Position numbers and translations under genes: made by a program. Of a stretch of DNA of 38,684 nt, positions 2,025-37,796 are shown in pieces. The DNA comes from Lachnospiraceae bacterium (GTDB taxonomy: Bacteria; Bacillota; Clostridia; Lachnospirales; Lachnospiraceae). Every line of letters starts with the position of its first letter. Within the stretch, counting starts at the first letter, position 1. Below the pieces are notes generated by a model, which worked only from the letters and a program-made list of their open reading frames with translations, did not search any database and was not told where the DNA came from. The stretch is from contig JAFSYI010000069.1 in assembly GCA_017450065.1 (NCBI GenBank), positions 1-38,684 on the forward strand. The letters run 5' to 3'.

Positions 2025-2053
2025 CTATTCATGGATGGTTGGGAGACATTCAT

Positions 2054-3460
2054 ATGCTTGAAATGAAATGGAATAATAATATTATGGACTGTATATCTGA
2101 GGGTCTCATCATCATAGATCTACGTGGCGATGTTTCATATATAAATGCCGCAGGCTCTGTAATTCTTGGGTTAGATCCGGATAATATTACCGGAAAGAAA
2201 TTCGCAGACTGCTTCCTTAACGATCCCGAAAATGACACCTTCGTTCAAAGCTTTTTAGATGTTATCTACGATCATGATTCTAATAATGAATCATATATAA
2301 CCTATCATGCTAAGAACGGCGTGAAGAGGCTTCGTATCATGACTTCCTGTTTAAAGCATGGCAATGAGACTACGGGTATAGTAGTCCTCCTTGAAGATTT
2401 AAGCTCTCTTATCGAGCTTAAGGATTCCATCGTTGCAATGGAAAAAATTCAGGAATTGAATAACCGGCTCAGTATAAGGAATGAGCTTCTTACGGAAACC
2501 TTTGGCCGATATCTTTCGGATGAAATCGTAGAGAAGCTGCTCTCGAAGCCCAATGAACTGAATCTTGGCGGCAGGAAGCGAAATGTAACCATACTAATGA
2601 GTGATCTGAGAGGGTTTACTGCTCTTAGCGAGCATATTGAGGTCAAATCTTTGGTTTCAATGCTGAATCATTATCTCGGGGAAATGATAGAAGTGATTGA
2701 AAACTTTGGCGGAACTGTTATAGAAATCCTCGGTGACGGGATATTGGTCGTGTTTGGTGCACTCGGGAACATATCCGATCACGCCGATAATGCCATTGCC
2801 GCTGCCATTTCAATGCAGAACCGTATTCCGGCTATAAATTCCTGGAATAAAAAGCACGGATATCCCAATCTTAAAATGGGCATCGGGATAAACACCGGAG
2901 AGGTCATAGTAGGAAACATCGGCTCCCGCAAAAGAGTAAGATTCAACGTTATAGGAAACGAAGTCAATATATGCGGCAGGATTGAAAGCTATACCGTTGA
3001 CGGACAGGTACTGGTTTCCAAAAACACAGTGAATTCAGTAAAGGCTCCTCTTTCAATAGAAAGAGAGATGTCGGTAACTCCAAAGGGTATTGATAAAGAA
3101 ATGTCTCTCTATCAGATAAAATCTATTGGAGAGCCATACAATATTGTCGTAAGAAATGAAGAGACAAAAACAGAACTTCTCAGGGAACCGGCTCCTGTCT
3201 GTTTTTATAAACTGGAAGAAAAACATGAAATAAAACAACCCTGTTTCGGAGGGCTGATCTCAGTTGCACCAAACGGGGCTGTTCTGAGTACCGATACTGA
3301 ATTACTTATTTATGATAATATCTGTATAATGGCCGGCGGAAAGCTGTCGTGTAAGGTTATGGAGAAATCCGGAAACGAATATCTTGTTCGCTATAATTCC
3401 ATACCGTCTCAATATGATGCGTGGATTAACAAGTATAAATCTTCAGAAGACAGCAACTGA
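2054..3460 (+). CDS. PAS domain class III nucleotide cyclase with PilZ-like tail
   Basis: This protein should convert a nucleoside triphosphate to its 3',5'-cyclic monophosphate in the cytoplasm. The ATG at 2054 is preferred over an in-frame TTG at 2039 because GGGAG lies eight bases before it. A PAS-like sensor covers about residues 10-115 and a short coiled coil 120-155. The cyclase domain covers 165-340, with metal-binding D184 (SDLRGFTALSE) and D228 (ILGDGILVVFG) and transition-state N305/R309. The two base-recognition positions are unusual: E224 replaces the lysine of adenylate cyclases, and N298 replaces the usual Asp/Thr. Glu at the first position is typical of guanylate cyclases. The C-terminal 80 residues resemble a degenerate PilZ-like domain (weak). 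It converges on the MBL and twin-cNMP-binding genes, 12 bases from stop to stop. Product identity, cAMP or cGMP, is open. Confidence 0.85.
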   Translation: MLEMKWNNNIMDCISEGLIIIDLRGDVSYINAAGSVILGLDPDNITGKKFADCFLNDPENDTFVQSFLDVIYDHDSNNESYITYHAKNGVKRLRIMTSCLKHGNETTGIVVLLEDLSSLIELKDSIVAMEKIQELNNRLSIRNELLTETFGRYLSDEIVEKLLSKPNELNLGGRKRNVTILMSDLRGFTALSEHIEVKSLVSMLNHYLGEMIEVIENFGGTVIEILGDGILVVFGALGNISDHADNAIAAAISMQNRIPAINSWNKKHGYPNLKMGIGINTGEVIVGNIGSRKRVRFNVIGNEVNICGRIESYTVDGQVLVSKNTVNSVKAPLSIEREMSVTPKGIDKEMSLYQIKSIGEPYNIVVRNEETKTELLREPAPVCFYKLEEKHEIKQPCFGGLISVAPNGAVLSTDTELLIYDNICIMAGGKLSCKVMEKSGNEYLVRYNSIPSQYDAWINKYKSSEDSN

Positions 3461-4309: not shown

Positions 4310-5311
4310 TTATAACTTCAGGCACTGTAAAACAAGCGTCATATCCTTATCTTTTCTGAAGTCGTCTGCCTTCTTCTTTACCTCGGTTTCAGATGTTCCG
4401 TTATCCTTAGCTTCTTTCATCTCTGCCAACAGCTTACAGGCTTCAAAATATTCCTTCGTTGTACGACGAAGCCTTTGTGACAGCAGCTCAAGGATCATTT
4501 CAACCTTGCCCGGATTCTTCTCAAACAACGTCTGAAGATCCTTCTCATATATTACTTCAACAATAGTATCATTCTCAAGAACCACTGCAGTAGCACTGCG
4601 GGGTGCCTTTTCTATAAGACCCATTTCTCCAAAGAACTGATTTGCATTGACTTCTGCGATTTTCTTCTCTTTGTCTGTTCCGTATTCATAGTAAATTCCC
4701 ACCTTGCCTTCATGTATATCATACATACAGGTTCCGGGATCATCTGCACGGAATATAACCGTACCCTTATCATATTTTTCAATCTGCTCATAATATCCTT
4801 CTGCATGATTGGAACCCTTCTTCTCTCTGACTTCCTCGGCAGTGAGTCTGTCTGCAGCTTTCCTGCGTTTGAAATAAATATCTGCAAACTTCTTAAGCTT
4901 ATCCGAAAAGCCTTCGCTCTGATCTGATTTACCGCTGGATATCTCCTCAATAGCCTGTCCTGCCTGTATATAATCCTTTGTAATCTCACGCAGACGGCCG
5001 CTCAGGAGCTTCATTACATCAAGAAGCTGATCCGGATGATCTTTAAAGTAATCCATAGCTGAGTCTGCCGGAATCTCATCAGTTACAAGGCTGTCTGAAA
5101 GAACTACGGCGGTAGCACTTCTGGGATAAACCTCCATTACGGCCATTTCACCGAAATATTCACCATCCGTAAGTTCTCTGATCTTAGTCTCTTCCTGTTC
5201 ACCGTATCCGGCATATATGCCGACAATACCACTCTTGATACGGTAAAAGGCTTCACCCTGTTCACCCTCCTTAAAAATAACCTCTCCCTTTGCAAATTGT
5301 CTCTCTGCCAT
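4310..5311 (-). CDS. Protein with two cyclic-nucleotide-binding domains
   Basis: This soluble 333-residue protein is built from two CRP-like cNMP-binding domains and no DNA-binding or enzymatic domain. Each half has an intact phosphate-binding cassette: FGEMA 53-57 with R64 in PRSATAVV, and FGEMG 227-231 with R238 in an identical PRSATAVV. A charged helical linker (about 115-175) separates them, and a lysine/glutamate-rich helical tail follows the second (about 285-325). The start has a perfect AGGAGG. It heads a probable two-gene operon with the MBL hydrolase and faces the cyclase. In eukaryotic PKA regulatory subunits tandem domains inhibit a partner, so this may be a cNMP-responsive adaptor. 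That comparison is functional analogy only, and no partner is visible. Confidence 0.85.
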   Translation of the reverse strand: MAERQFAKGEVIFKEGEQGEAFYRIKSGIVGIYAGYGEQEETKIRELTDGEYFGEMAVMEVYPRSATAVVLSDSLVTDEIPADSAMDYFKDHPDQLLDVMKLLSGRLREITKDYIQAGQAIEEISSGKSDQSEGFSDKLKKFADIYFKRRKAADRLTAEEVREKKGSNHAEGYYEQIEKYDKGTVIFRADDPGTCMYDIHEGKVGIYYEYGTDKEKKIAEVNANQFFGEMGLIEKAPRSATAVVLENDTIVEVIYEKDLQTLFEKNPGKVEMILELLSQRLRRTTKEYFEACKLLAEMKEAKDNGTSETEVKKKADDFRKDKDMTLVLQCLKL

Positions 5312-15119: not shown

Positions 15120-15884
15120 TTACTTAAGCTTCTCATACAGAAGATTTAACAGGTTCTCTCTCGATGTGGATTTAAGAATGTATCCGTCAGGTTTTAATGA
15201 CATAATACGCTCAACCGCCTCCCTGTTTCCTATACCTGTCAGGAAGATAACCGGGATATCCTTTGTATCCGGTTCCTGTTTTAACATCTGAAACACCTGC
15301 GGACCGTCAATTCCAGGCATTTCATAATCAAGCAGTATAAGATCTGCCCTGTTCTTTAACAGGAACTTGATAGCCTGCATCCCGGCTGTAACTATATCGG
15401 TCTGATATTCTTTCCTGATCCATTCCCTTATCATTTTGGCATATGAAGAATCATCATCTACGATAAGTATCCTTTTTAAAGATCCTGACGATCCCGGCAG
15501 ACCGACAGCATTCTCTATTACAGGCACAAGAATATCCATTTCTACAGGTCTGTCAACCCATGTGTAATCACCGATCATGGGCACCTTATCAAACAGACCG
15601 GCACGGTCTTTTTCCTCTCCTATAATGATCATGCTTCTGCCGCTTCTGTTTACCTTATCACAGATATATGTCAGTTCTTCCGTCTTATCTTTCATTTCCG
15701 CTATATTTCCCGGAAGATAAAGAAGAAACAGATCTGTACTGCATGAAATATCCCTTAATTTCTCAAAGCCTTCCGAAAGAATAGAGGCTTTATATCCTGC
15801 ATCCTTCAGTTTTCTCTCAATGCCTTTCACAACAACACTGTACTGTAATACGATCAGTACAAGGCTTTTCTGTCCTTCGCTCAT
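15120..15884 (-). CDS. Double receiver protein, N-terminal domain degenerate
   Basis: The second half (about 135-255) is a full CheY-like receiver: ILIVDDDSSYAKMI, phosphorylation site in LILLDYEMPGIDG, IFLTG, and the conserved lysine in DGYILKS. The first half (about 8-125) has receiver-like alternation (LVLIVLQYSVVVKGIERKL, LFLLYLPG, SMIIIGEE, YTWVDRPVEMDIL) but lacks the acidic pocket and the phospho-acceptor in the usual place, so it is a pseudo-receiver. There is no output domain. The ATG at 15884 is preferred to a GTG at 15896. As the last gene of the seven-gene cluster it is a likely phosphorelay end point or adaptor for the two HPt proteins. Confidence 0.82.
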   Translation of the reverse strand: MSEGQKSLVLIVLQYSVVVKGIERKLKDAGYKASILSEGFEKLRDISCSTDLFLLYLPGNIAEMKDKTEELTYICDKVNRSGRSMIIIGEEKDRAGLFDKVPMIGDYTWVDRPVEMDILVPVIENAVGLPGSSGSLKRILIVDDDSSYAKMIREWIRKEYQTDIVTAGMQAIKFLLKNRADLILLDYEMPGIDGPQVFQMLKQEPDTKDIPVIFLTGIGNREAVERIMSLKPDGYILKSTSRENLLNLLYEKLK

Positions 15885-15957
15885 TTTTCTTCCCACCGCG
15901 TATTTCGAGCCTTATCCCATTCAGACATCTAATGACGATGTGTCTGCACTCATGGTT

Positions 15958-16923
15958 TTATCCCAGTATCTCACAATATACCAGCGTCTGGTTAAGGAGC
16001 TGATAAGCCACTTCACCGAAGGTAACAGGGCCTGTATACGGAGGTATCTTCTGCCCTTTTAAGTTTCCAAACTGATAATTCAGTATACAATTACAGGATA
16101 AAGCAGGCCTGTGAGCTCCCGCTTCATTGATCCTCTCCCTGAACTTTGCGGCATAATCCTCCACATCAACCGCAAAACGGTATTCAATATTCCTAAAGAC
16201 AGGAGCATAGAAACTTACAGTGCTGTCTGTCACTTCCTTGATCGAAGTATTTATATACGAACCATTATAATCCGCAACCAGCGGCATCTTTATGTCTATA
16301 CCCTTCTTCCTTATATATTCCGATAGATTCACATCCTGCCCGTTAACTATGCAGTTTGTAACGCTCAGATCATTATCGTTAAACTGAATGATCGGATCGG
16401 TCTTATCATCCGAGAAAATATTTATCATATTTATCATGGCGCTCTTCCCTTCCGGAAGCTTTATATACATTGCCACTGCCTTATCTGTATATGATTCTCC
16501 CCTTGTACCGTCATAAACCCTGGCCGTTCCGCCCGTTTCAAGATCGAACCCGGATATCCAGCCTATAGTCGGATGCATAAGCAGTTCTTCCACCTCGGGA
16601 GCTTCCTTGGCATACTTTGTAGCTACCTGCGATCCGTATGGAATGATAAGCATGGTAAGACCGTTATCATAGCATTCTTCAACAATCTGAAAGATATTAT
16701 ACTTTCCGTAAGCTTCTACTCTTATTTCCTCGGCATAATCTATCTCATCCACAAAAAGTCTCTCTTTTGTAAGAAGTCCGCCCTCTTCACTGATGAAATA
16801 CGGAGTTGTTCCTCCTATCCAATTGCCCTTTGGAAGCTGTTTTAACAGTGATTCATCCGCTGCTATATGTAGTTTTTTCCCTTCATTTATTAAATTTATG
16901 GTCTCTTCCAAATTAATAAGCAT
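15958..16923 (-). CDS. FIST-like sensory/adaptor protein (tentative)
   Basis: This soluble 321-residue protein lies inside a histidine-kinase cluster. The N-terminus (NWIGGTTPYFISEEGGLLTKERLFV) and the middle region do not match anything I know with certainty. The last 50 residues (RPALSCNCILNYQF, then FGEVAYQLLNQTLVYCEI) resemble the end of FIST_C domains, which have a conserved cysteine followed by a GE-x-N-Q-T pattern. FIST domains are putative small-ligand sensors found with kinases and diguanylate cyclases, which fits the neighbourhood. AGGAGG is seven bases before ATG. The family may carry a DUF name; I am not sure which. Confidence 0.5.
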   Translation of the reverse strand: MLINLEETINLINEGKKLHIAADESLLKQLPKGNWIGGTTPYFISEEGGLLTKERLFVDEIDYAEEIRVEAYGKYNIFQIVEECYDNGLTMLIIPYGSQVATKYAKEAPEVEELLMHPTIGWISGFDLETGGTARVYDGTRGESYTDKAVAMYIKLPEGKSAMINMINIFSDDKTDPIIQFNDNDLSVTNCIVNGQDVNLSEYIRKKGIDIKMPLVADYNGSYINTSIKEVTDSTVSFYAPVFRNIEYRFAVDVEDYAAKFRERINEAGAHRPALSCNCILNYQFGNLKGQKIPPYTGPVTFGEVAYQLLNQTLVYCEILG

Positions 16924-17180: not shown

Positions 17181-20100
17181 TTAACTTAATGCCTCTAAGA
17201 TCCCGTCATAATCAAATTTGTCTGCCTTCTCACAGATCAGATCAAACTTGTCTTTTTCCGAAGCAGGAATGGCGTATTCTTCTATTTCCTTCATGATATC
17301 ATCAATCATTTCACTGTTCATCTCTTCAGCCGCATTACGGAGTTCTTCATAAATACTCTCCATAAGAAACTCATCCGCCATGGGTTTATCGGAATCACCC
17401 CGGCTTTCCGACTCAAATAGGGGAGCCAGTATTTCCAGATAACTTAAATACTCATCCATTACGAATCCATGATTTTCTTTTATGTATTGAATATTATCTC
17501 CCTTTCCCGCCATTTCGAGCTTCTCTGCACAGTCTCCGAGCTCAACGGCTCCAACAAGCCTTGCGGAACTCTTAAGAGCATGTATCTTTATCGTATAATT
17601 CTCCCAGTTTCCGGATGAATAAGCATCTTCAAGTTCCTCATACTTACCCTTTATGGAATCATAGAATATCTTTAGCACCGTCTTGAAGGCCGCTTCAGAT
17701 CCTGAATTCTTTATTGCAATTTCTGTATCGATTCCTCTGATGTCTCCTATTGACAGATCATTATCCGGTTCGTCATTATCATCCGGTTTCTCATATGATC
17801 CCGCCTCTGCAACGGCTTCGGAGTATTCCTCTGCAAGCTCCTCCCCAACCGCAGATTCTCCGTATTCATCACCTGAGACATCCTCATGTGAAGATTCTTC
17901 CTGTATGTTCATATCATCTATATATGATGCTATGTTATATGATTTATTTGATTTAAGGAAATAAAGTATTCCAAGTGAGCCGGGACCGCAATTTAAAGAT
18001 ATCGCAGCCGATGCCTGCTGAAAAACAACGTGATCAAAATACGCTGTCTTATGGATCTCTTCTTCGATCCATTTAAGCATCTCCGTCGGAACATCCGCAT
18101 AAGTAATAAACAGTATATCAGAATCCGGTATTGCATCAGGCGGAAGGGCATATTTAATATATTTCCGGTATACTCTTCTTGTCCCGCCCAGCCATATTCC
18201 TCCTATATCTGTCCTGTCGTTTCTGATCCTTAGCGCCGGATGGATATTTAAAGCGCCTGCAAGCTTATTCAGATTAGAACTAACAAGCCCCTTCTTAGCC
18301 ATATATTCAGTGGTATTAATGATAAAGCTGCACTTGAGACGTTTCTTTACCGTATCAAGCTCTGACAGAATATCTTCAACCTGCTTTCCCTGCTGCATCA
18401 GCTTATATGCGATCAGTACAAGTATACCTGTGGTACTTGAGATACTCTCCGAATTGATGACCGTAACATTATCAAATGCTTTGGCCGCCTCGGAGGCTAT
18501 TTTAAAATCATCACTCATGCTTGTTGTGATAGCTATATGGATAAGATGATGCGCCTTCTTTAAATTTTCCACAAAGAATTCCGTATAATCGGCTTCACAC
18601 GGAGGTGCCGAAACTGCTTCCTTTCCGGATCCGATATGCTTAATAAGTTCATATGCGTCCATATGAAACCCATCTTTAAATATTCCTTCTTCCGTCTTAA
18701 TCACAAACGGAATAATGGGTATATGCAGCTTTCTTATCACAGAATCCGGAAGATCGCACATACTTGAGGATGTAATTATTACCGGAAGCTTCTGCGAATA
18801 CTTATCGGCCGTATGTATCTCTTCACCGTCTCCCGTCAAAACGGATCTTAATATGATCTTTTCACCTGAGATATGCCGTATAAGCATTTCTTCCATAGCT
18901 TCGCCGGAAACGGGCTTTACAAGGTATCCGTCAAATCCTGCCTGGTTATACAGCTCCCTGTTTTCGCTTCCCGCATTGGCTGTCAGAACAATAACCGGTG
19001 TGTTTCTGTTAAGGCCTCCGGTCTGGTTCCTTAATACTTCAAGACACTCTATTCCATCAATACCCGGCATCAGATGATCCATAAATATCGCATCATAATG
19101 AGTCCTTAAGCACATCTCCAGAGCTTCTTTCCCACTCCTTGCCACATCGATACCCATATCTGTATCCTCAAGCAGTCTGCGCTCAACCTCTAAGTTCATT
19201 TCATTATCATCTACTATGAGTATCCTGACTTCAGGCGCTAAGAAGCTGCTCTCATACACATTTCTTTTAACTATCTGCTGGTTATGGATATTCAGCTCTC
19301 CAATCCTGCTATGATCCGATACCTTCTGCTTTACCATAACAGTAAAGGTAGAACCCTCACCATAAACACTGTTAACAGTGATCGTTCCATCCATCAGTTC
19401 AGTAAGCTGTTTTACAATGCTCAGTCCCAATCCTGTTCCTTCAATATGACGGTTTTTCCCTTCATCCACACGCTTGAAAGCGTCAAACAGATATGGCAGG
19501 TCTTCCTTTTTTATTCCAATTCCCGTATCCGAAACGGATATCATCAGTTCCGCCTTATCCGTCTCTGCCACTCTGCTCTCTACACGAAGTCCGACATGAC
19601 CTTTTGCCGTATACTTTACTGCATTGTTTAACAGGTTTATTATTATCTGCTTAATACGGACCTCGTCTCCGTAAAGAACCGTGGGTACCTCAGGATCCAC
19701 GCTCACTTCAAATCCCAGTCCCTTATCATGGGCCCGAAGCCACATCATATTAACGATCTCCGAGAGCATATCTCCTATACGGTAGTCAACGGGAACTATG
19801 TCCATGCTCCCTGCTTCAATCTTGGAAAAATCAAGTATATCATTTATAAGTGCAAGGAGCATCTTACCTGAACCCTGTATACCCGAAGCATCCTTTATTA
19901 TATCATCCGACGCATCCTGATCTCTCAGGATAAGTTCGTTAAGACCTAATATTGAGTTGATCGGAGTCCTGATTTCATGACTCATGCTCGAGAAAAAGCG
20001 GTTCTGGGACCGGTTTAATTCTTCAACCCTTTCGGCTTCCGCATGAGCTCTCTTACTCTCTTCAGTGAAGATATTCTTTTGATACATAAGCATAAAATAC

Positions 20101-20615
20101 ATGCATATACCAACCAGTATAACCGACACAAGCGGATCCAGAAAGCTCATCAACATGGAATGCGGATATATCCATTCCAAATGCCTGTATGCCGACCAGA
20201 ATTCAAAAATACCGATGAACGTGAGTATGCCCATCATCGTAACCCTTAATCGGCCCGTAAGAGACATTCCGATGAACATATATGCAAATATGATCCAGTA
20301 TACTCCTCCTCCCCTTATTCCTCCTCCGTAATAGAAGGTTATCGGTAATATTATAAAGATCAGTACGCACACAGATATTAACGACCCTATCTGGATTTTT
20401 TCAAAGCGTATACTTAATGAAACCCATACCGGAATAGCTATTATGGATGCGGAAATGGTAACTATCTCCTGCATGCTTTCGCCTCCGATTATATCAAATA
20501 TCAGGGCTATCACCATTGCGGAGACTCCTATTATCGACAACATGATAAACGTTCGTTCTTCATAACTGCGTGTGAAGTCTGTAAGTCTTGCAAACAGCTT
20601 TTTTATAAGCTTCAT
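17181..20615 (-). CDS. Hybrid histidine kinase with embedded DegV domain: 7TM-HisKA-HATPase-REC-DegV-HPt
   Basis: This 1144-residue sensor has about six membrane helices (22-180), HisKA with phospho-accepting H213 (SSMSHEIRTPINSILGLNEL), and an HATPase with N-box NLLNNAVKYT, DTGIGI and GTGLGLSI. A receiver follows with D513 (IFMDHLMPGIDG) and K567. Residues 608-890 match the DegV fatty-acid-binding fold: IITSSSMCDLP for the usual TDS-x-x-DLP start, SAPPC for TSQPS, IAITTSMSDDF, VINSESISSTTGIL, INTTEYMAKKGLV, and GPGSLGI for GPGTVGV. An acidic linker leads to an HPt with H1012 (YTIKIHALKSSARLVG). The start overlaps the preceding kinase stop by four bases (ATGA) and has GGGAGGGG. I infer that lipid or fatty-acid binding modulates the relay; the fusion is directly visible. 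Confidence 0.9.
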   Translation of the reverse strand: MKLIKKLFARLTDFTRSYEERTFIMLSIIGVSAMVIALIFDIIGGESMQEIVTISASIIAIPVWVSLSIRFEKIQIGSLISVCVLIFIILPITFYYGGGIRGGGVYWIIFAYMFIGMSLTGRLRVTMMGILTFIGIFEFWSAYRHLEWIYPHSMLMSFLDPLVSVILVGICMYFMLMYQKNIFTEESKRAHAEAERVEELNRSQNRFFSSMSHEIRTPINSILGLNELILRDQDASDDIIKDASGIQGSGKMLLALINDILDFSKIEAGSMDIVPVDYRIGDMLSEIVNMMWLRAHDKGLGFEVSVDPEVPTVLYGDEVRIKQIIINLLNNAVKYTAKGHVGLRVESRVAETDKAELMISVSDTGIGIKKEDLPYLFDAFKRVDEGKNRHIEGTGLGLSIVKQLTELMDGTITVNSVYGEGSTFTVMVKQKVSDHSRIGELNIHNQQIVKRNVYESSFLAPEVRILIVDDNEMNLEVERRLLEDTDMGIDVARSGKEALEMCLRTHYDAIFMDHLMPGIDGIECLEVLRNQTGGLNRNTPVIVLTANAGSENRELYNQAGFDGYLVKPVSGEAMEEMLIRHISGEKIILRSVLTGDGEEIHTADKYSQKLPVIITSSSMCDLPDSVIRKLHIPIIPFVIKTEEGIFKDGFHMDAYELIKHIGSGKEAVSAPPCEADYTEFFVENLKKAHHLIHIAITTSMSDDFKIASEAAKAFDNVTVINSESISSTTGILVLIAYKLMQQGKQVEDILSELDTVKKRLKCSFIINTTEYMAKKGLVSSNLNKLAGALNIHPALRIRNDRTDIGGIWLGGTRRVYRKYIKYALPPDAIPDSDILFITYADVPTEMLKWIEEEIHKTAYFDHVVFQQASAAISLNCGPGSLGILYFLKSNKSYNIASYIDDMNIQEESSHEDVSGDEYGESAVGEELAEEYSEAVAEAGSYEKPDDNDEPDNDLSIGDIRGIDTEIAIKNSGSEAAFKTVLKIFYDSIKGKYEELEDAYSSGNWENYTIKIHALKSSARLVGAVELGDCAEKLEMAGKGDNIQYIKENHGFVMDEYLSYLEILAPLFESESRGDSDKPMADEFLMESIYEELRNAAEEMNSEMIDDIMKEIEEYAIPASEKDKFDLICEKADKFDYDGILEALS

Positions 20616-22666
20616 CTTACACCCCTCCCGTCATAGCTTATTTTCTTTGCCGGAAGTACCCGAAGCATAACTCTTTCAAAATCAGATGTATTGATAGGCT
20701 TGGCTATAAAGCCGTCGAAGCCTTCTTTCATAAACATTTCTCTTGCACCTGATACTGCATTTGCGGTGAGTGCAACGATCACGGCCTCCCTGTCCATATC
20801 TTTTGCCAGGGCTTTTATCTGCTTCATGGCTTCCACTCCGTCCATTTCCGGCATCATATGATCCATAAATATAAGATCATAATCATTCTCTCTGAATTTT
20901 CGGATAGACTCCATACCGCTTGCTGCAGTATCGATAACCATCATATAATCCCTGAACAGGGAAGTGGCGACAACAAGATTCATTGGTTCATCATCAACTA
21001 CCAAAGCCCTGACACCTTTAAAAACAGGCTTTTCCCTGTTCTCATTATTTTCTGATTCCCCGACATCATGTCCATCATTCAGTATCTTCATTATCGGATA
21101 AGCATATAAAGGTTTGGGCATAAGTATTATCCGGCTGTTTTCAGGAAGTTCAAAACCCGGCTCCGCCGTTACCACGATCGTTATTTCTTCCCTGGCAAGC
21201 AATTCGAAATAGCCTCTGTTCTCCTCATACTCTTCCTGTCCCATGAATACATGAGTCGCATTCAGCTTCTCCTTGAGACGTTCCACTTCATAGACCGTTT
21301 CTGCCGGATACAGTGGAACATTCATAGCCGATGCAAGGTTTGCAGCCATGTTCCGGTAAAAATCGCGAAGTCTCGGAACCTTATACTTATCGGGTCTTAC
21401 ATGGAAAAGAACTGCACCGTCAAACGACTCCCCCAGCTTAAGACAGGGTTTATCATCAACAACTTTCTGTGGAATAGTAACCCTTACTGTTGTTCCGTTT
21501 CTCCTGTCGCTTTCAATCTTGACAAAGCCACCCATCCTGTGTGCAAAACCATATACTATGAAAAGTCCCAGGCCTATGCCGCCGGAGCTGCGGTTTCTCT
21601 TCTTGTTAGCCTGGTACATTCCCTCAGTAACAGACCTTATATCATCACCATTCATGCCTATTCCGGTATCTGTCATTTCTATGGTAAGATTCACGCCGTA
21701 ATCCATATTCTCGGTATACATTTTCACATATATACCGCCTTTTTTCGTGAACTTTATCGCATTCTCCAGAAGATGCCTGAATATCTTATGAAGCTTTTTT
21801 ATATCTCCTGTCATCATCGCAGGTGTCATAGGGTTTAAATCAACAATAAGTTCCAGATCTTTAGCACTGTCATTCATACGAAAACTTGTAACCACATCAT
21901 TTATAAGGGATGTGCTCATGTAATTATCTTCTTCAAGAAATATCTTGTTTCTTTTGCATTCGGTATAATCCTGGATATCCTCGATCTGGTATGAGAGCCT
22001 TACTCCGGCTGTTTTAATGGAATCCGCCTCATATCCGATCCCTCTTTTGATCAGAAGGTCTGACATACCGTTAACCACATTTACCGGTGTCCTTAGCTCA
22101 TGTGATATATTGGACAAAAAATCTTCCATGCTATCATCATTTGCTTTAATACGTTCTTCTTTTATCCTGTTCTCTTCTTCACCATAGAGCCTGTCATTTA
22201 TACCCCTCACGTTGATATAATATATAAAAAGCACTATCAATATATGAAGCAGAAGCCTTGATATGACAAGCTTATCAAATACTAACGGGTCACCTCCGGG
22301 AAGATTAAAGATGTGAATAAATAACAGGGCAAAGTACTCAAAAAGAAAAATATGTATCATATAGATGCTGTTAAACATGGAATATGCTGCCATTGCCACA
22401 ACCACTACCAATGCCGTATCAAATAATGAACTCTTATGTACCCCATAATAAAACACCAAAAGAGCAGCATAGACAAAATAAAACACTTTCCGTATATCAT
22501 AATCTACCCGGCCGGAAAGATTAACTGCCCAAAGAGATATAAGTCCGACAACAATAACCGTAGGAACCCAGAATTCCCATCCCATCAGCTTTATCCCGGC
22601 AATTAAACCCAATGAAGACAGGGTTGCCAAAAAGACTATAAATTTCTCGTTATTCTTCTGACTCAT
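20612..22666 (-). CDS. Hybrid histidine kinase: TM-HisKA-HATPase-REC
   Basis: This 684-residue kinase has about six N-terminal membrane helices (8-152) and a short coiled coil. HisKA carries H189 (SNISHELRTPVNVVNG), and the HATPase shows LENAIKFT, DTGIGM and GGIGLGLFIV. A roughly 140-residue region resembling a decayed receiver follows (410-535, ending IILMPKPLYAYPIMKIL), then a complete C-terminal receiver with D602 (IFMDHMMPEMDG) and K656. It has no HPt of its own, so phosphoryl output should pass to the HPt of a neighbouring protein. It overlaps the REC-GGDEF gene by 17 bases and the DegV kinase by four. GGAAGGA precedes the ATG. Confidence 0.9.
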   Translation of the reverse strand: MSQKNNEKFIVFLATLSSLGLIAGIKLMGWEFWVPTVIVVGLISLWAVNLSGRVDYDIRKVFYFVYAALLVFYYGVHKSSLFDTALVVVVAMAAYSMFNSIYMIHIFLFEYFALLFIHIFNLPGGDPLVFDKLVISRLLLHILIVLFIYYINVRGINDRLYGEEENRIKEERIKANDDSMEDFLSNISHELRTPVNVVNGMSDLLIKRGIGYEADSIKTAGVRLSYQIEDIQDYTECKRNKIFLEEDNYMSTSLINDVVTSFRMNDSAKDLELIVDLNPMTPAMMTGDIKKLHKIFRHLLENAIKFTKKGGIYVKMYTENMDYGVNLTIEMTDTGIGMNGDDIRSVTEGMYQANKKRNRSSGGIGLGLFIVYGFAHRMGGFVKIESDRRNGTTVRVTIPQKVVDDKPCLKLGESFDGAVLFHVRPDKYKVPRLRDFYRNMAANLASAMNVPLYPAETVYEVERLKEKLNATHVFMGQEEYEENRGYFELLAREEITIVVTAEPGFELPENSRIILMPKPLYAYPIMKILNDGHDVGESENNENREKPVFKGVRALVVDDEPMNLVVATSLFRDYMMVIDTAASGMESIRKFRENDYDLIFMDHMMPEMDGVEAMKQIKALAKDMDREAVIVALTANAVSGAREMFMKEGFDGFIAKPINTSDFERVMLRVLPAKKISYDGRGVR

Positions 22667-23999
22667 AACGTTCCTTCCTCAGCTCTGACATTGCATACTC
22701 TATTTTGATCCTGTCATGATATCCCGCAAGCGATAATTCCTTCATTATGCGATCGATCAGTATGCTAATATTATCCTGTTTACACATGGGTAAAACCACA
22801 AAATACATATTATGCTGCCACCTGATCATAATATCGGATTTTCTGAGTGTATTTCTAAGGATATTACCGAATTCGGATACCATCTCCGAGAATAATACCC
22901 CCTTCTCCCCGGACGATAAGGAAAACAATATTCTTACAGCAGTTCCTCCGTAACGCACTAAAAAACGTTCAATAAAACGATAATTGCTTAAAAACGCTTC
23001 CTGTCCCAAAAGTAATGCCCCCTTACCCTCAGTACGTTCAGCCATAATCTTGATTATCCTGATAAGTTCCCCGTCTATATCCTTCTTAGGATTCTCTGCC
23101 GTCGTATCGGGATCATATATACGATAGCCATGCTTGCCTTCCCGTTTAGCTTCATAAAGCGCATTATCCGCATACTGAAACAGTATCTGATAATCCTTCC
23201 GGTTATCATCGGTAAAAGCAGCTCCTATCGATATTCCCAAAGGAATTCCATGATCTTCTCCCATCAGGGATATCGCTTCCTCTGCCAGCTGTTCATTAAG
23301 CCTCTGAGTTATGGATGCCACCGAATCCTCATTATTCATATCTGTGAAGAATCCCATAAACTCATCGCCGCCTATCCTGCATATCATATCATCGTTTCTT
23401 ACATTGAGCCTGACTATTCCGGAAAACGCAACAAGGACACGGTCACCCATATCGTGACCATAGAGATCGTTTACAAGCTTGAAATTATCAAGATCCATTA
23501 CCATTAAAGCACCTTTATCTGTCCTGCAAAGCTCGGATACTTTTTCCGTACCGCTGGCCTTGTTCAAAAAGCCTGTCAGCTTATCAAGTGTAGCTTCCTC
23601 GGTAAGGCTTTCTATCGTTTTATTGTTATCTATTGTGTTTTTTATACGTTTGATAAGGATGTCCTTGTCAAAAGGCTTGCGTATAAAATCAGAAGCTCCT
23701 GCCTTAAGTCCCCTGCGCTCTGTTTCGCTGTTATTCTCACCGGTCAAAAAGATCACCGGCGTCAGATTTCTTTCATGGTCTTCTTCATATTGACGCAGTG
23801 CGCGGTATGTCTCAAAACCGTCCATATCGGGCATCAATATATCCAGCAGTATAAGATCGGGTGTATGATCCATAATAAATTCCAGCAGATCCGCACCCGA
23901 ACGCAGACAGCTCACACGCATATTCTCTTCACGCAGCATATTTTTTGCATTTGTGAGGCTGAAAGGTTCATCATCTACAACTGTTATCCAGTAACCCAT
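22650..23999 (-). CDS. Response regulator REC-GGDEF with second, degenerate GGDEF
   Basis: This should make cyclic di-GMP when phosphorylated. The receiver (1-125) has D53 in LILLDILMPDMDG and K108. The active GGDEF domain (about 133-295) has GGDEF at 210-214, the DLDNFKLVND substrate region and the inhibitory I-site R201-x-x-D204 exactly five residues before GG. The last 140 residues look like a second, decayed GGDEF domain. KSDIMIRWQHNMYFVVLP aligns with RxxDxxxRxGGDEFxxxLP, keeping R386/D389 but losing the GGDEF signature. The gene begins 21 bases after the Cache kinase and overlaps the next kinase by 17 bases. No PilZ or EAL effector for c-di-GMP is clear in the window. Confidence 0.92.
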   Translation of the reverse strand: MGYWITVVDDEPFSLTNAKNMLREENMRVSCLRSGADLLEFIMDHTPDLILLDILMPDMDGFETYRALRQYEEDHERNLTPVIFLTGENNSETERRGLKAGASDFIRKPFDKDILIKRIKNTIDNNKTIESLTEEATLDKLTGFLNKASGTEKVSELCRTDKGALMVMDLDNFKLVNDLYGHDMGDRVLVAFSGIVRLNVRNDDMICRIGGDEFMGFFTDMNNEDSVASITQRLNEQLAEEAISLMGEDHGIPLGISIGAAFTDDNRKDYQILFQYADNALYEAKREGKHGYRIYDPDTTAENPKKDIDGELIRIIKIMAERTEGKGALLLGQEAFLSNYRFIERFLVRYGGTAVRILFSLSSGEKGVLFSEMVSEFGNILRNTLRKSDIMIRWQHNMYFVVLPMCKQDNISILIDRIMKELSLAGYHDRIKIEYAMSELRKERYESEE

Positions 24000-24020: not shown

Positions 24021-26309
24021 TCAGCCGTTCAGTAGTCTGATTATGGTCTTGTACTCATATTTATCCGATGCATCTTTGAGTTTATCAAATAATTCCTTAC
24101 TTTCTGCCGGAATGCGGTAATCACCCATTTCGGCAAAGATACTGTCAAGCATCTCGCAATCCATATCTTCCGCGGCTGCCCTTATCTCTTCAAATACACT
24201 CTCCATAAGGTCTGTATCGGCTTCCGGTTTATCATAGTCGGAATCAAATCCCGAAAACACCTCTTCCAGGGACTTTTTAAAGGAATCATATCTGTTTATA
24301 AATACATCATGATGGCTCTGTATATAGGCAATGTTTTCTTCTTTACCTGCATCCTCAAGTCTCTGTGCCTCCTCACCGAAGTCGTCCGCTCCTATGATCC
24401 TTGCCGAGCTTTTCAGGGCGTGAACCTTTATCGTATAATTTTTATAATCCTTATTCTCATAGAAGCTGTTAAGCTCCAAGGATTTTTCATCTATCGACTC
24501 ATAGAATACCTTTAAAAGAGCCAGGTATGACTCAGCGCTTCCACTGTTCTTAAGTCCTTTCTTTGTATCAATAATATCTGTATTTATCATAGCTATGGCT
24601 TCCGGAAGGTTTATGTGCTCTTCCGGGTTATCATCCCCGGTGCCGCATACCGTTACCTTATCCTCTGAAATATATTTAAGCATTATTTCTTCAAGCATTA
24701 TCGGATCAACCGGTTTTGCAAGGTAATCGCTAAAGCCCTCCGAAATATATTTTTCCCTAACTCCCGATATTGCATTTGCCGTTAGACACACAACAGGGGT
24801 TGAGACATTTTTATTTGATGGACTCTCTTTTATTCCATGAAGCGTTTCTATTCCATCTTTTTCCGGCATCATATGATCAAGAAAGATCATATCATACCTG
24901 TTCTTTTCAGTCAGCTTAACACACTCATCACCACTGTGCGCAGTATCAAGCATCACTCCCGTCTGCTTAATAAGGCTCTTAAATACCATAATATTCATGG
25001 GATTATCATCCACTACAAGCACACGCGCATCGGGAGCCGTAAATCTCTCATGATATTTGTAATCAGCGGTAGCCCGCTTTCTTATATAAAGGCTGCTGTC
25101 CTCATCTGCACCTTCTGTTTCAGCTAAGTCAGACTTCTCTGCACCTGTCTCCGAATAATCGAGCATTTCATCAACCAGACCCAGCAGATGCCTGCCAGCT
25201 GTCTTAACATTCTCAGAGTATTCACGGATCGCCGGTTCACCGCTCTCCCTTAAGATCATTTCGTTCATTCCAAGAATCGCATTGATAGGTGTCCTTATCT
25301 CATGGGACATTTTGGACAGAAAGTCCGATTTGGCATCACTCGCAGCGATCGCCTTCATCGACATATGCAGATATCTGTTGGAGCGTGTCATAATAATACT
25401 TATTATAAGCATAATGGCTATGACTACAGTAATGGTTACAAACATAATGGAATTAAGTGAACCAAATACGGATGTAGCATCTTTAACTGATATACAGAAC
25501 CATTCATTCTGTATATCCGCAACATATACTATATAGTTCGCCCCATTAAATATGAACTCAAAATAGTCGTTCTCTTTATTGAGCCTGCTTAATATCTCAG
25601 ATCCCAGCGTGCCCTTTTCATCATGATAATTCTTAAAAACCTCGCCAATATCCGAATGAGCCACTACCATTCCATCATCATTGAGGATCATTTCAATATC
25701 GGAGTTCCCGTTTTTTACAGCCTGCTCCGTCAGGTTCTGTATCCGGTCAAGAGATACATCAACCGATATTACGCTGACACCGTCACACAACGTCTTACCG
25801 AGAGCAAGCATCATATTTCCTGACTGAACATCAATGTAAGGATCCAGGATCGTAATTTCACCCGGATTCTCCATCGGTCTTTTATACCAGGGCCGCTCCG
25901 TTGCGTCATAATCCTTGGGCGGCTCCCAGTTGGTACCGCTGAAGAATCTTCCGTTTATGTATCCGTACAGGCCCGTCGAATTCTCTATAACGGCATTTCT
26001 CACCGCTGTTGATTCACCTACAAGATAATCCTGTATTTCTTCATCCGTCCTCTCTTCATTTATCATTTCATCCAATGTATAGGCGGCAAGTTTGACGGAA
26101 TCGATATTTGTAGTCAGATACCGCTCTATCTGATCTGCGGATTCTTTAGCTGTTATCTCACCGGTTTTTACTATATTATTTCGTTTCTCGTTATAGAGCA
26201 TACGGTAATACACTATGATTATTCCGGTAAAAAACAATATAACAAGAACGGCTATCACTATATTTCTTTTTATAAGCTTTCTTTTATCCCTGTCTGTATC
26301 TGTACTCAT
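24021..26309 (-). CDS. Cache-HisKA-REC-HPt protein lacking an HATPase domain
   Basis: Residue numbers here count from a TTG at 26342, the longest frame. Helix 28-47 is followed by a periplasmic/extracellular dCache sensor (about 50-290, with ATERPWYKRPMEN and ILDPYIDVQSGNMMLALGKTL) and a second helix (298-318). HisKA has H347 in SKMSHEIRTPINAILG. After HLLGLVDEMLDYSE there are only about 40 variable residues before the receiver (VLVVDDNPMN, D489 in IFLDHMMPEKDG, K543). The whole ATP-binding domain is therefore absent. An HPt follows with H641 (YTIKVHALKSSARIIG). It cannot autophosphorylate and must be phosphorylated in trans. The start is uncertain: TTG 26342, ATG 26327 or ATG 26309, none with an ideal ribosome site. 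It is the first gene of the cluster. Confidence 0.85.
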   Translation of the reverse strand: MSTDTDRDKRKLIKRNIVIAVLVILFFTGIIIVYYRMLYNEKRNNIVKTGEITAKESADQIERYLTTNIDSVKLAAYTLDEMINEERTDEEIQDYLVGESTAVRNAVIENSTGLYGYINGRFFSGTNWEPPKDYDATERPWYKRPMENPGEITILDPYIDVQSGNMMLALGKTLCDGVSVISVDVSLDRIQNLTEQAVKNGNSDIEMILNDDGMVVAHSDIGEVFKNYHDEKGTLGSEILSRLNKENDYFEFIFNGANYIVYVADIQNEWFCISVKDATSVFGSLNSIMFVTITVVIAIMLIISIIMTRSNRYLHMSMKAIAASDAKSDFLSKMSHEIRTPINAILGMNEMILRESGEPAIREYSENVKTAGRHLLGLVDEMLDYSETGAEKSDLAETEGADEDSSLYIRKRATADYKYHERFTAPDARVLVVDDNPMNIMVFKSLIKQTGVMLDTAHSGDECVKLTEKNRYDMIFLDHMMPEKDGIETLHGIKESPSNKNVSTPVVCLTANAISGVREKYISEGFSDYLAKPVDPIMLEEIMLKYISEDKVTVCGTGDDNPEEHINLPEAIAMINTDIIDTKKGLKNSGSAESYLALLKVFYESIDEKSLELNSFYENKDYKNYTIKVHALKSSARIIGADDFGEEAQRLEDAGKEENIAYIQSHHDVFINRYDSFKKSLEEVFSGFDSDYDKPEADTDLMESVFEEIRAAAEDMDCEMLDSIFAEMGDYRIPAESKELFDKLKDASDKYEYKTIIRLLNG

Positions 26310-26535
26310 ATCCTTCGTCTTCACCATATCAAATAAATTCAATTATCATGCAATATCTTTACTGCCTCATACAATATGTAATGCTGCCCTGTGGATATAG
26401 TGACTCATGGTTTAAGAATACCATAGTTCAGGAGCCTGTTCAAACATTATAGACAACTCCCCGGATTTATCTGACATTAAAAAAACCATTCATATCGATC
26501 CGGCTTTTATGACTGTCAAAAAGACCGGGGGCTTT

Positions 26536-34602: not shown

Positions 34603-35973
34603 TCACTCAGGAATCATCATCATGGACGTAAAAACCACCATACCATTATCTTGCTCAAGGCGTAACGTCCCGTAGTATTTCTCCGTGATTCTCTTCATGT
34701 TCATAAGACCATACCCGTGACTTTCCCTGTCAGATTTAGATGTGTCAGGATACCCTGTTTCCGTATTCAGGGACAATTCACCCAAAAAGCTGTTTTTGAC
34801 CTGTATCAGAAATGCATTATTATTCTTCCATGATCTGACCTCAATCTTTGGGTCTTCGCTGTTCGATGCTGCTCTTATCGCATTTGCCAGAGCATTATTC
34901 AATATGACGCCTATATCTATGGATTCAACCTTACCGCTTGCAGGATAGTGAAAATCATCCAAGAACAAAATACCGGCCTCTTCCGCTTCCCGTTTTCTCT
35001 CGGACAATACGATATCTGTGACAGGATTACCTGTTTTAGCTGTGATCTCAGGCATGGGGAATCCATTCTGCCATTCATTAAGGTATGACTTTGCCTCTTC
35101 ATCCTTTCCTTTATCAAGCAGATTCCCAAGGATCATGATATGAGAATTGACATCATGCCTTATTCCTCGGATATCGGAATAAAGCTTCTCTATTGTATGA
35201 ACATGGCCGGTAAGCTCCTCAACCTGCTTGGAAACAAGAGCACTCTGTAGCGCTTCTTCCTGTGATCTTTTTATCTGCTGGTATGAATATATGACCGAGA
35301 TCACCACAAAAAAGGCTATCACCCCAAACATTGGCCGAATCAGTTCATAAACCGGATAATTATTCCAGATGTACTCTCCCGATTTGTTCACATATGCATC
35401 AGACATGAACGAGCTGATCCAGTAACCTGCAATAACAGCTATGTAGGGTGTCACCAAAATTGACAGTTCCCGCCACTCCATCTGCTCACTCCTCCTTGAG
35501 TAAACCCTTTCAGTAATATATATGGCAAGAAACAGAAGGATTTTTTCAATGATGACAAGCGTTGTCAGAGCAACAATAAACAGGGCAAACTGCCTCTCGC
35601 TTTCCACTGCCCGCAGATAAGTGGCTTTGCTTATGACTTTCCAGGGTAACAGTGCTATAACATCCGATATCCATATGAGCATATATATGGTCACGGACAA
35701 AAATATCTTTTGTGGGATATTTCTTCTGTCCATGATCAGGGATACGATACAGACTGCGCTTCCCCCTACAATATATGCAGTGATCCCTGTCATAATAAAA
35801 GGAATCAGGTATAAAACCGTCATCACAAGAAAGAAGGTTATTCCAATAATCACTGCCCTGTATTTACTGTTTATATATGAATAGTAAAACCTTGCGACGA
35901 GTATACCGCTTAAGAGCAATCCGACAAGCGCCGATATCGTATTCGCAGCATCCCACATTTGTTCCGTGATCAT
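34603..35973 (-). CDS. GHKL-type sensor histidine kinase (AgrC/ComD class)
   Basis: This 456-residue kinase has six or seven membrane helices (about 11-232), a coiled coil, a phospho-accepting H273 in DIRGIRHDVNSHIMILGNLL and a GHKL ATPase (LNNALANAIRAAS as N-box, SHGYGLMNMKRITEKY as G-box). This arrangement is that of peptide-sensing kinases paired with LytTR regulators. AAGGAAGG precedes the ATG at 35973. It follows the LytTR regulator by 71 bases on the same strand, so the regulator gene comes first and both are probably co-transcribed. No AgrB-like protease or precursor peptide was found nearby, so the ligand is unknown. Confidence 0.9.
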   Translation of the reverse strand: MITEQMWDAANTISALVGLLLSGILVARFYYSYINSKYRAVIIGITFFLVMTVLYLIPFIMTGITAYIVGGSAVCIVSLIMDRRNIPQKIFLSVTIYMLIWISDVIALLPWKVISKATYLRAVESERQFALFIVALTTLVIIEKILLFLAIYITERVYSRRSEQMEWRELSILVTPYIAVIAGYWISSFMSDAYVNKSGEYIWNNYPVYELIRPMFGVIAFFVVISVIYSYQQIKRSQEEALQSALVSKQVEELTGHVHTIEKLYSDIRGIRHDVNSHIMILGNLLDKGKDEEAKSYLNEWQNGFPMPEITAKTGNPVTDIVLSERKREAEEAGILFLDDFHYPASGKVESIDIGVILNNALANAIRAASNSEDPKIEVRSWKNNNAFLIQVKNSFLGELSLNTETGYPDTSKSDRESHGYGLMNMKRITEKYYGTLRLEQDNGMVVFTSMMMIPE

Positions 35974-36043
35974 GATGACACCTTCCTTTTATAATGAAAC
36001 GCCCCTCACATTCGTTCGGCGGCATATCGGGCGGTGCATTAAA

Positions 36044-36060
36044 ATCATGCTTCGCATGAT
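36044..36060 (-). repeat. Short hairpin spanning the response-regulator stop codon
   Basis: ATCATGC, TTC, GCATGAT form a perfect 7-bp stem whose left arm overlaps the stop codon of the LytTR gene. The sequence resembles the hairpin at 36877-36893 in the same operon's leader (TCATGCG, TTC, CGCATGA). It could act as a processing or translation element between regulator and kinase. Confidence 0.45.
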
Positions 36061-36767
36061 AACACCTTCCTCTGCACATATTCCATGTATGCTCTCAGAA
36101 ATCCGTCATATTCTCTTCTTGCGATGGGAATACTGTCACCGCCTGTCAGAGTCACAAATGCTTTATCATAACGCTCTATATATTTCATGTTCACAAGATA
36201 TGATCTGTGGATACGATAAAAATCACTTCCGGCCAGTTTCTCAAGAGCCGATAACTGTCCATAGTATTCAATGTTTCCCTCTCTCGTATGAAGGATCGTC
36301 TTCCTGTTAAACACCTCTGCATACAGCAGTTTTCTAAGTTTTAACCGGATATGCGAAGTTCCCGACCTGATATCAATATATCTGTCATTGTCCGCAGGTG
36401 GCTTTTCCATATGTTCTAGCTCAGATACCGCGCTTTTAAGAACTTCCTTAAGTTTTTCATCCGTTATCGGCTTTACGAGGAAATGAAACGCGTGAAGATC
36501 AAAGGAGTCAAACACCCGGTCTTCCTCGCCGGTGACAAAAATAAGAATCTTACGCCAACCCTTTTCTCTAAGCTCCTTTGCAGTATCCATACCGTTCATT
36601 CCCGGCATCTTTATATCAAGTAGCAAAAGATCCGGAAATATATCATCCAAAAGAAGTTCCTCCCCTGATGTGTATGTTATAACTTCCGCATACGGACAGA
36701 TTTCCTTAACTTTCTCCTTAAGGATTGAGCATATCCTTTTTTCATCATCACATATGACAATACGCAT
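36045..36767 (-). CDS. LytTR-family response regulator (AgrA/ComE class)
   Basis: This 240-residue regulator has an N-terminal receiver (MRIVICDDEKRICSIL, D51 in LLLLDIKMPGMNG, K in FHFLVKPI). The C-terminal LytTR DNA-binding domain covers about 130-235 (YIDIRSGTSHIRL, ILYAEVFNRKTILHT, FYRIHRSYLVNMKYIERYD, IPIARREYDGFLRAYMEY). The frame stays open upstream to 36869, but those codons lie in a long hairpin. The ATG at 36767, where the receiver begins, is the real start. It precedes the GHKL kinase gene by 71 bases. A pair of direct repeats 240 bases upstream matches the pair in front of the helical-protein operon, which points to autoregulation plus control of that operon. Confidence 0.93.
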   Translation of the reverse strand: MRIVICDDEKRICSILKEKVKEICPYAEVITYTSGEELLLDDIFPDLLLLDIKMPGMNGMDTAKELREKGWRKILIFVTGEEDRVFDSFDLHAFHFLVKPITDEKLKEVLKSAVSELEHMEKPPADNDRYIDIRSGTSHIRLKLRKLLYAEVFNRKTILHTREGNIEYYGQLSALEKLAGSDFYRIHRSYLVNMKYIERYDKAFVTLTGGDSIPIARREYDGFLRAYMEYVQRKVLSCEA

Positions 36768-36807
36768 TGTCCCGTCATTCTCCCAAAAAACCATCACAGT
36801 GGTTGCT

Positions 36808-36869
36808 ATGCATTTCCTTATTTGCATCCGGAAAGTCATGACTTTCTGAATGCAAATAAGGAAATGCAT
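36808..36869 (-). repeat. 62-nt near-perfect hairpin in the response-regulator leader
   Basis: Perfect 20-base arms (36808-36827 and 36850-36869) enclose a further self-complementary core, GAAAGTCATGACTTTC. The whole is a 31-bp stem with one mismatch and one wobble. It ends 41 bases before the regulator ATG. With two other hairpins it makes the leader highly structured. Confidence 0.75.
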
Positions 36870-36876
36870 TCAGAAA

Positions 36877-36893
36877 TCATGCGTTCCGCATGA
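36877..36893 (-). repeat. Short hairpin in the leader
   Basis: TCATGCG, TTC, CGCATGA form a perfect 7-bp stem. It is part of the dispersed 26-bp repeat and related to the hairpin at the regulator stop codon (36044-36060). Confidence 0.5.
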
Positions 36894-36907
36894 CACGCCC
36901 CTGCTTT
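36882..36907 (-). repeat. Dispersed 26-bp repeat, copy 2
   Basis: The minus strand matches 28264-28289 at 25 of 26 positions. It lies in the leader of the LytTR operon and overlaps the short hairpin at 36877-36893. Confidence 0.6.
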
Positions 36908-36928
36908 TGGCAGTGGCTGGTCCAGTAC

Positions 36929-36960
36929 GAATAGCGAATTTCTGATGAAATTCACTATTC
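36929..36960 (-). repeat. 14-bp stem-loop at the start of the leader
   Basis: GAATAGCGAATTTC (36929-36942) and GAAATTCACTATTC (36947-36960) pair at 13 of 14 positions around a TGAT loop; the odd pair is a G-T wobble in the minus-strand transcript. It lies just downstream of the LytTR operator and possible promoter. Confidence 0.55.
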
Positions 36961-37009
36961 TATACTTTATATCATTATCGGATATCATTCAAAATTTATT
37001 GCCCTCTAT

Positions 37010-37042
37010 GTAGTAAACGGTTGATTTTTTGTAGTGAACGGT
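37010..37042 (-). promoter_or_regulatory. LytTR-type operator 2 (upstream of the LytTR regulator)
   Basis: On the minus strand ACCGTTCACTAC (37042-37031), nine bases, then ACCGTTTACTAC (37021-37010) form a direct repeat with a 21-bp period, followed by ATAGAGGG. A TTGAAT about 20 bases further on may be the -35 element. It sits between the terminator of the DUF5674 operon and the regulator leader. The 330-base interval 36768-37097 otherwise holds only the leader hairpins. Confidence 0.78.
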
Positions 37043-37064
37043 ATGAAACAATACCTTTATGTGT

Positions 37065-37088
37065 AAAAAAGAATGCCATCCGGCATCC
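37065..37088 (-). terminator. Intrinsic terminator of the DUF5674 bicistron
   Basis: On the minus strand GGATGCC, GGAT, GGCATTC form a 7-bp stem with one wobble, followed directly by TTTTTT. It starts ten bases after the last stop codon. Confidence 0.75.
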
Positions 37089-37097
37089 TTTTATATA

Positions 37098-37400
37098 TTA
37101 TAATCGCCCCAGAAATGCATCATAATATCTGGTGAGCACTTCATCGGTCGTCTGATAATTGTTATCTCCAAGGAAATAATCCTGAAGTTCTTCTATGGCA
37201 CATTCAAATTCATCTGTTCTGTGTATGTTTTTAGGGTCCTTTAATGATAAACGCCAGAAATCAATTGCTTTATTACAGAAATTCTCCGCCTTCTGCATAT
37301 CACCTTTTTTCTTCCATCTGATAGCACGGGCTACTTCGCTTCCTATGTTGCTTATCTGCATCCACACCGGCATATCAAACCATCTTATATCTGTATCCAT
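37098..37400 (-). CDS. Small partner protein of the DUF5674 gene, unknown function
   Basis: This 100-residue helical protein (MPVWMQISNIGSEVARAIRWKKKGD; AENFCNKAIDFWRLSLKDP; EFECAIEELQDYFLG) has no known motif. Its ATG overlaps the end of the DUF5674 gene by 16 bases with GGAGGT just upstream, so translation is coupled. The overlap, shared promoter and shared terminator show a two-gene module. Similar small helical proteins occur beside nucleotidyltransferases and toxin-antitoxin genes, but nothing here proves such a role. Confidence 0.7.
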   Translation of the reverse strand: MDTDIRWFDMPVWMQISNIGSEVARAIRWKKKGDMQKAENFCNKAIDFWRLSLKDPKNIHRTDEFECAIEELQDYFLGDNNYQTTDEVLTRYYDAFLGRL

Positions 37401-37732: not shown

Positions 37733-37767
37733 TCTCTAAGTCTCCTATTATGTGTTCTTTGTTTTGA

Positions 37768-37796
37768 ATTATACAAATGTCATGAATGCAAGTCAA
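37768..37796 (-). promoter_or_regulatory. Near-consensus sigma-A promoter of the DUF5674 bicistron
   Basis: On the minus strand TTGACT (37796-37791) and a perfect TATAAT (37773-37768) are 17 bases apart, giving a leader of about 30 bases. Confidence 0.8.

Follow-up and report, generated by a model that had tools for sequence, protein, structure and literature searches.

A FakB-type DegV domain within a paired hybrid histidine kinase of Lachnospiraceae, a candidate intracellular acyl receptor

The window analysed here is a stretch of 38,684 nucleotides from a Lachnospiraceae bacterium (contig JAFSYI010000069.1 of assembly GCA_017450065.1), and it carries on its minus strand, at 17181..20615, the gene for a 1144-residue hybrid histidine kinase (HK) that contains a complete DegV domain. 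The protein consists of a membrane region followed by HisKA, HATPase, receiver (REC), DegV and histidine phosphotransfer (HPt) domains and a C-terminal helical extension. Its N-terminal region (residues 1-180, 20076..20615), with long predicted helices and no Pfam match, is read as probably membrane-spanning. Next, on the same strand, come HisKA (residues 204-269, 19809..20006), with the phospho-acceptor His213 within SHEIRTP; HATPase_c (residues 316-430, 19326..19670), with NLLNNAVKYT, DTGIGI and GTGLGLS; the receiver (residues 465-577, 18885..19223), with Asp469, Asp470, Asp513 and Lys567; the DegV domain (residues 614-886, 17958..18776), with class-defining residues Ser669, Thr697, Leu777, Leu809 and Asn875; and HPt (residues 980-1035, 17511..17678), whose HALKSSA motif starts at His1012. 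All four relay domains score above their Pfam cut-offs, the relay motifs include FMDHLMP in addition to those named, and the HisKA histidine, the receiver aspartate and lysine, and the ATPase-box residues are invariant in an alignment of 42 rows.

That the inserted domain is a DegV domain lying between receiver and HPt had been proposed in an earlier note made from the letters alone, which suggested a hidden Markov model search and a comparison with FakB as checks, and both bore the proposal out. PF02645 matches at 116.1 bits against a cut-off of 27, over profile positions 4-278 of 280 and thus nearly the whole profile, TIGR00762 is also matched above cut-off, and the Pfam domain order places the domain as described. 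Structure prediction and comparison with solved structures gave a FakB/DegV fold, and many of the closest solved structures are titled as holding long-chain fatty acids. The domain belongs to the DegV superfamily and, as judged on the predicted structure, has the FakB fold.

What sets the fused domains apart from stand-alone DegV proteins is a residue signature, which can be read against FakB1. In FakB1, Thr62, Ser95, Ser171 and His270 form a network round the fatty-acid carboxylate (PMC8892158), Arg205 contacts FakA and the membrane (PMC8892158; PMC9136124), and in the Staphylococcus aureus protein Arg173 is required for phosphorylation and dispensable for fatty-acid exchange (PMC9136124). 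Distinct domains were aligned, 136 fused and 47 stand-alone (150 and 47 with identical copies included), and FakB1 numbering was transferred by column conservation and spacing, residues 777 and 809 being 32 apart, as are 173 and 205. The docking arginine at the R205 position is found in 0/136 fused domains (Leu809 in the window) versus 42/47 stand-alone ones, and the catalytic arginine at R173 in 23/136 (Leu777 in the window) versus 45/47. At the H270 position, 132 of the 136 fused domains have Asn (Asn875 in the window; the exceptions are His in L066 and L172, Lys in L051 and Ser in L063), whereas 44 of the 47 stand-alone domains have His. The carboxylate hydroxyls are retained in most fused domains, with Ser or Thr in 129/136 at the T62 position and in 113/136 at the S95 position; in the window these are Ser669 and Thr697, both conservative changes. 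Positions 617, 775, 807, 839 and 869 also define the class (136 fused against 44 stand-alone domains, three stand-alone DegVs with Asn at the H270 position being excluded); the changes at 617, 839 and 869 lie around the core positions 621, 648, 726 and 877, which are kept. Such a signature is the pattern that would be expected if the pocket were kept and the carrier function lost; with the FakA-docking arginine gone from all and the catalytic one from most of them, the fused DegV is probably no longer a shuttle.

The DegV kinase does not stand alone. Its start overlaps by 4 base pairs (bp) the gene of a second hybrid kinase, here called HK2 (P0002, 684 residues, HisKA-HATPase-REC, 20612..22666, minus strand), which has no HPt match. 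For counting, 145 loci were reduced to 131 distinct fused genes, ten of which had no upstream open reading frame (ORF) in the locus, leaving 121. The upstream gene is on the same strand in 120 of these, and in 114 it is a hybrid kinase with ATPase and REC domains, mostly of the P0002 type among the rows listed; in 83 of the 114 the overlap is exactly 4 bp. Among the seven without such a kinase (L082, L132, L138, L166, L169, L172, L183), several have a cut or split partner. In a reverse search (HK2 threshold E 1e-45), all 48 HK2 matches, spread over 22 genomes, adjoin a DegV kinase, and 48 of 51 DegV kinases adjoin an HK2 match (exceptions on G311 C212, G315 C27 and G318 C28); three genomes of the same genus (G302, G310, G312) have neither a DegV kinase nor, at this threshold, an HK2 match. 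The picture of a single kinase given in the earlier note thus had to be replaced by that of one half of a near-obligate pair. Its suggestion that the domain serves signalling is strengthened by loss of the docking arginine in 136/136 and of the catalytic arginine in 113/136 fused domains and by the kinase upstream in 114/121; the acyl ligand that it had also proposed stays a candidate.

This pair has, as a rule, one HPt. Among the 112 pairs in which the 3' end of the DegV gene is intact, HPt is on the DegV protein only in 89 (L164 included), on HK2 only in 22, on both in none and on neither in one, so that 111 of 112 have a single HPt. The pair with neither, L083, has an HPt in the next short ORF, and the gene therefore looks broken. 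Being related by descent, these 112 pairs do not count as independent events; the main switch of HPt position may be a single event, with L164 a second, separate arrangement. A simple transfer of HPt from HK2 to the DegV kinase found no support in an HPt tree (99 columns, few forks resolved), in which 18 of 19 HPts of DegV-HPt proteins group, with a support of 99 in the Shimodaira-Hasegawa-like approximate likelihood ratio test (SH-aLRT), with 23 HPts of other kinases, some rows of which duplicate long DegV kinases (L044, L091, L119). That group includes the HPts of the window's DegV kinase and of the nearby kinase P0004, and all 20 HK2 HPts and that of L164 fall outside it. At L165 a separate gene carries an HPt that scores below the Pfam cut-off, and the DegV kinase runs off the contig, where a second HPt is possible; this locus speaks faintly for a shared HPt. 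HK2 and the DegV kinase presumably exchange phosphate.

The descent of the fused domains was examined in a tree built from 80 representatives, of which 40 are fused, 38 stand-alone and 2 solved domains (a quick method without bootstrap). A branch with an SH-aLRT of 100 sets all 40 fused domains, together with three stand-alone DegVs (L204, L221, L223), apart from the rest; these three are the stand-alone ones with Asn at the H270 position, and all three follow a hybrid kinase gene. One of them, at L226, lies behind an 809-residue HK-REC-HPt protein with a 13-bp overlap and before a REC-GGDEF gene, and another, at L227, lies behind a 926-residue HK-REC-HPt protein with a 4-bp overlap. The third, L204/L225, was scored as stand-alone with its pieces searched separately; it shares 74 bp, in a different frame, with the HK-REC gene before it and could be what is left of a fusion that broke. 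The path likely led from a carrier gene to a subunit beside a kinase and then to a fusion.

The survey for other REC-DegV-HPt proteins that the earlier note had called for found many. Five DegV genes occur in the genome of the window: three stand-alone ones, which retain the FakB residues, the window kinase, and a second hybrid kinase (893 residues, without an HPt match) that ends in DegV; this genome also carries a Dak2-domain (FakA-type) gene. When the DegV stretch was searched in 61 relatives, frames of at least 450 residues were found in 34 of 37 genomes of the same genus (G300 counted by a partial match in a 660-residue frame) and in 0/24 genomes from other families of the order. In a family sample of 299 genomes, 50 have a match at E 1e-38 or better and 47 of these are fusions by frame length, including three whose frames reach contig ends (G163, G174, G240); the remaining three (G044, G165, G274) match only in frames of stand-alone size. 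All 28 of the family-sample matches opened as loci have relay domains beside DegV. The best 80 of 524 confirmed loci in GTDB species genomes, a choice biased to close relatives, are all fusions, 79 with HPt in the same ORF, and their titles name Lachnospiraceae, Butyrivibrio and a few Eubacterium and Clostridiaceae, many from the rumen. Butyrivibrio sp. XPD2002, VCD2006, NC2007 and MC2021, in records without a metagenome-assembled genome label, have the fusion. An assembly chimera is ruled out by the same architecture in single ORFs across many genomes.

Two main forms occur, HK-REC-DegV (about 895 residues) and HK-REC-DegV-HPt (about 1140 residues). Rare forms are L164, a DegV-HPt protein without a kinase; L165 (5431-8304), with an N-terminal DegV before HK-REC and a frame cut by the contig end; and L166, an HATPase protein without a HisKA match and with DegV at its end. 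L164 and L165 suggest a movable signalling module. In L169:6887-9880 the fused frame enters unreadable letters and a proline run past DegV, and this tail is probably not real. To look beyond the family, 398 genomes of the phylum and 295 of the order were searched, with at most five (phylum) or seven (family, order) candidates scored per genome, so that misses are possible. Frames of at least 700 residues are listed from the window's family only, plus one genome of another family of the same order (G954), whose fusion (L251) is also behind an HK-REC-HPt gene. Four longer frames opened besides L251 (L248, L249, L250, L252) proved to be over-long ORFs of stand-alone DegVs; five more, of 362-387 residues, were left unopened.

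The genes around the window's pair are all on the minus strand and are encoded in the order P0004, REC-GGDEF (P0003), HK2, DegV kinase, DUF6976 and small REC; the first four are likely one operon because the gaps between them are 21, -17 and -4 bp. P0003 (449 residues, 22650..23999) is the candidate cyclic di-GMP (c-di-GMP) output of the relay. P0004 (773 residues, 24021..26342) is a dCache-HisKA-REC-HPt protein that could be phosphorylated solely by another kinase, since it has no HATPase match; it does have SHEIRTP, and its version in L050 has an ATPase match. The DUF6976 protein (321 residues, 15958..16923) and the small REC protein (258 residues, 15120..15896, Pfam REC at 143-252) are recurrent downstream neighbours, the former in close relatives. 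Across loci, REC-GGDEF lies within three genes upstream of the DegV kinase in 33/90, and GGDEF within three genes downstream in 8/109. Downstream of the kinases, a 507-residue gene, recognised by motif and length, is found in 57/109, the small REC in 52, DUF6976 in 29 and none of these in 28; the one copy of the 507-residue gene tested belongs to the Na:alanine symporter family. It follows the kinase pair at L041:5520-7043 and like loci and does not adjoin the window's pair. The other DegV kinase of the window's genome has, two genes upstream of it, a REC-GGDEF-REC-HD protein (L056:13449-15824), a single chain that combines a domain for c-di-GMP synthesis with an HD_5 domain. Elsewhere in the window, a protein with PAS and Guanylate_cyc domains (2039-3460, plus strand) lies near a protein with two cNMP-binding stretches (4310-5311, minus strand), a possible cyclic nucleotide circuit, and at 34603-38683 (minus strand) a LytTR response regulator stands between two GHKL-type kinases, an arrangement which we take to resemble AgrC/AgrA.

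From the observed fusion, predicted fold, residue signature, pairing, single HPt and gene context, the reading we favour, at a rough probability of 0.48, is a two-kinase phosphorelay in which a DegV domain descended from a FakB-type fatty-acid carrier has become a cytoplasmic acyl receptor. An acyl-type ligand would enter the FakB pocket and would neither be presented to FakA nor be phosphorylated; occupancy would be sensed through a change of conformation, which would affect how phosphate passes between the receivers and HPt or how the kinase pairs with HK2. The single HPt would serve both kinases and pass phosphate on, either to REC-GGDEF or to the small REC protein, the output most likely being the c-di-GMP level set by the neighbouring REC-GGDEF. 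Ligand class, direction of control and c-di-GMP output are what we infer here. A wider proposal is offered tentatively: that a FakB branch left lipid metabolism to become an intracellular acyl receptor, as a subunit behind a hybrid kinase and then fused into a second kinase, and that in rumen butyrivibrios, among them Butyrivibrio fibrisolvens, which polyunsaturated fatty acids inhibit, the pair links c-di-GMP to the pool of free fatty acids or acyl compounds.

Several points weigh against the acyl-receptor reading, beginning with the acyl class itself, which is deduced. At the S95 position, 23/136 fused domains have Ala or Gly. Arg is retained at the R173 position in 23/136, so that one element of the carrier signature persists in places. 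Mutations in the carboxylate hydrogen-bond network destabilise FakB (PMC8892158), and with the carboxylate His replaced by Asn in 132/136 the domain may bind something other than free fatty acid, since this change could affect which ligand fits. REC-GGDEF is near a minority of loci only, the commonest recognised downstream gene is the 507-residue one, of a symporter family in the copy tested, and no lipid gene was seen beside the DegV kinases among those neighbours that were annotated, a minority. The full-length structure model reached a predicted template modelling score of 0.46; domain contacts are not readable from it, and it was set aside as evidence.

Some of these same observations would suit a receptor whose pocket was re-tuned, by the Asn and the loss of the arginines, to another small molecule, for example a neutral acyl compound or a non-lipid nutrient tied to the symporter: the Asn that replaces His, the class changes at 617, 839 and 869 around the kept core, and the 507-residue gene. 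Against it are the long-chain fatty acids named in the titles of many of the closest solved structures and the carboxylate hydroxyl contacts kept in most fused domains, and we consider it rather unlikely. Somewhat less probable again is a DegV domain without a ligand that acts as a structural or docking module, either to place REC and HPt or to recruit HK2. FakA ends in a DegV domain (PMC10146087), and since the C-terminal part that bears it binds FakB (PMC9136124), a DegV-type domain can act as a docking module, which also counts against the receptor; the near-obligatory partner kinase and the deduced nature of the acyl ligand fit docking as well. That the domain is still a working FakB delivering to FakA, with the kinase merely tethered to lipid metabolism, is very improbable: the fold is intact and the genome has a FakA-type gene, but the docking arginine is lost from every fused domain and the catalytic one from 113 of 136, and three stand-alone DegVs with FakB residues are available in the same genome.

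To our knowledge, few bacterial receptors are known that couple fatty acids directly to a phosphorelay. In the present case a well-studied carrier fold occurs as a kinase module in many Lachnospiraceae, and this may be an undescribed bacterial way to sense fats inside the cell. The residue changes separate binding from catalysis, so that a clean test is possible, and the presence of a single HPt per pair of hybrid kinases, maintained despite rearrangement, makes a natural case for the study of shared relays. The lag phase of Butyrivibrio fibrisolvens is prolonged by linoleic and linolenic acids, and a study concluded that the bacterium carries out biohydrogenation to survive the bacteriostatic effect of these acids (PMC2836310). 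If the acyl-receptor reading is true, a lipid-reading relay in relatives of this species would bear on rumen lipid chemistry.

Neither hybrid kinases with HPt nor kinases that sense fatty acids are new; in the open-licence PMC literature, no description was found of DegV-kinase fusions or of a FakB-type domain as a kinase module. The DegV passages of PMC3146951, PMC12688256, PMC9912610 and PMC10146087 deal with stand-alone DegV genes or the DegV of FakA and name no kinase fusion. With the FakB/DegV family the window domain shares fold, full length, core motifs and carboxylate hydroxyls, but it lies inside a hybrid kinase and has both arginines and the carboxylate histidine replaced. RpfC, the sensor of diffusible signal factor in Xanthomonas, also has REC and HPt modules and a c-di-GMP output. 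Like the system proposed here it is a membrane-bound histidine kinase activated by a fatty acid, yet its ligand is bound by a sensor region of 22 residues at the N-terminus (PMC5391125), whereas here the receptor role would fall to an entire FakB-type domain that follows the receiver. Solved structures matching the DegV domain include those of DhaQ (2iu4, 2iu6). DhaQ is the co-activator of the dha operon, works with a transcription factor and binds dihydroxyacetone; unlike the window kinase, it is not known to be part of a phosphorelay. The hybrid kinases of the TorS/BarA/ArcB type have the same relay modules in the same order (HisKA-HATPase-REC-HPt), and TorS and BarA, both below cut-off, are the best NCBIfam neighbours of the window kinase, which differs from them in the DegV domain between receiver and HPt and in the one HPt for two neighbouring hybrid kinases.
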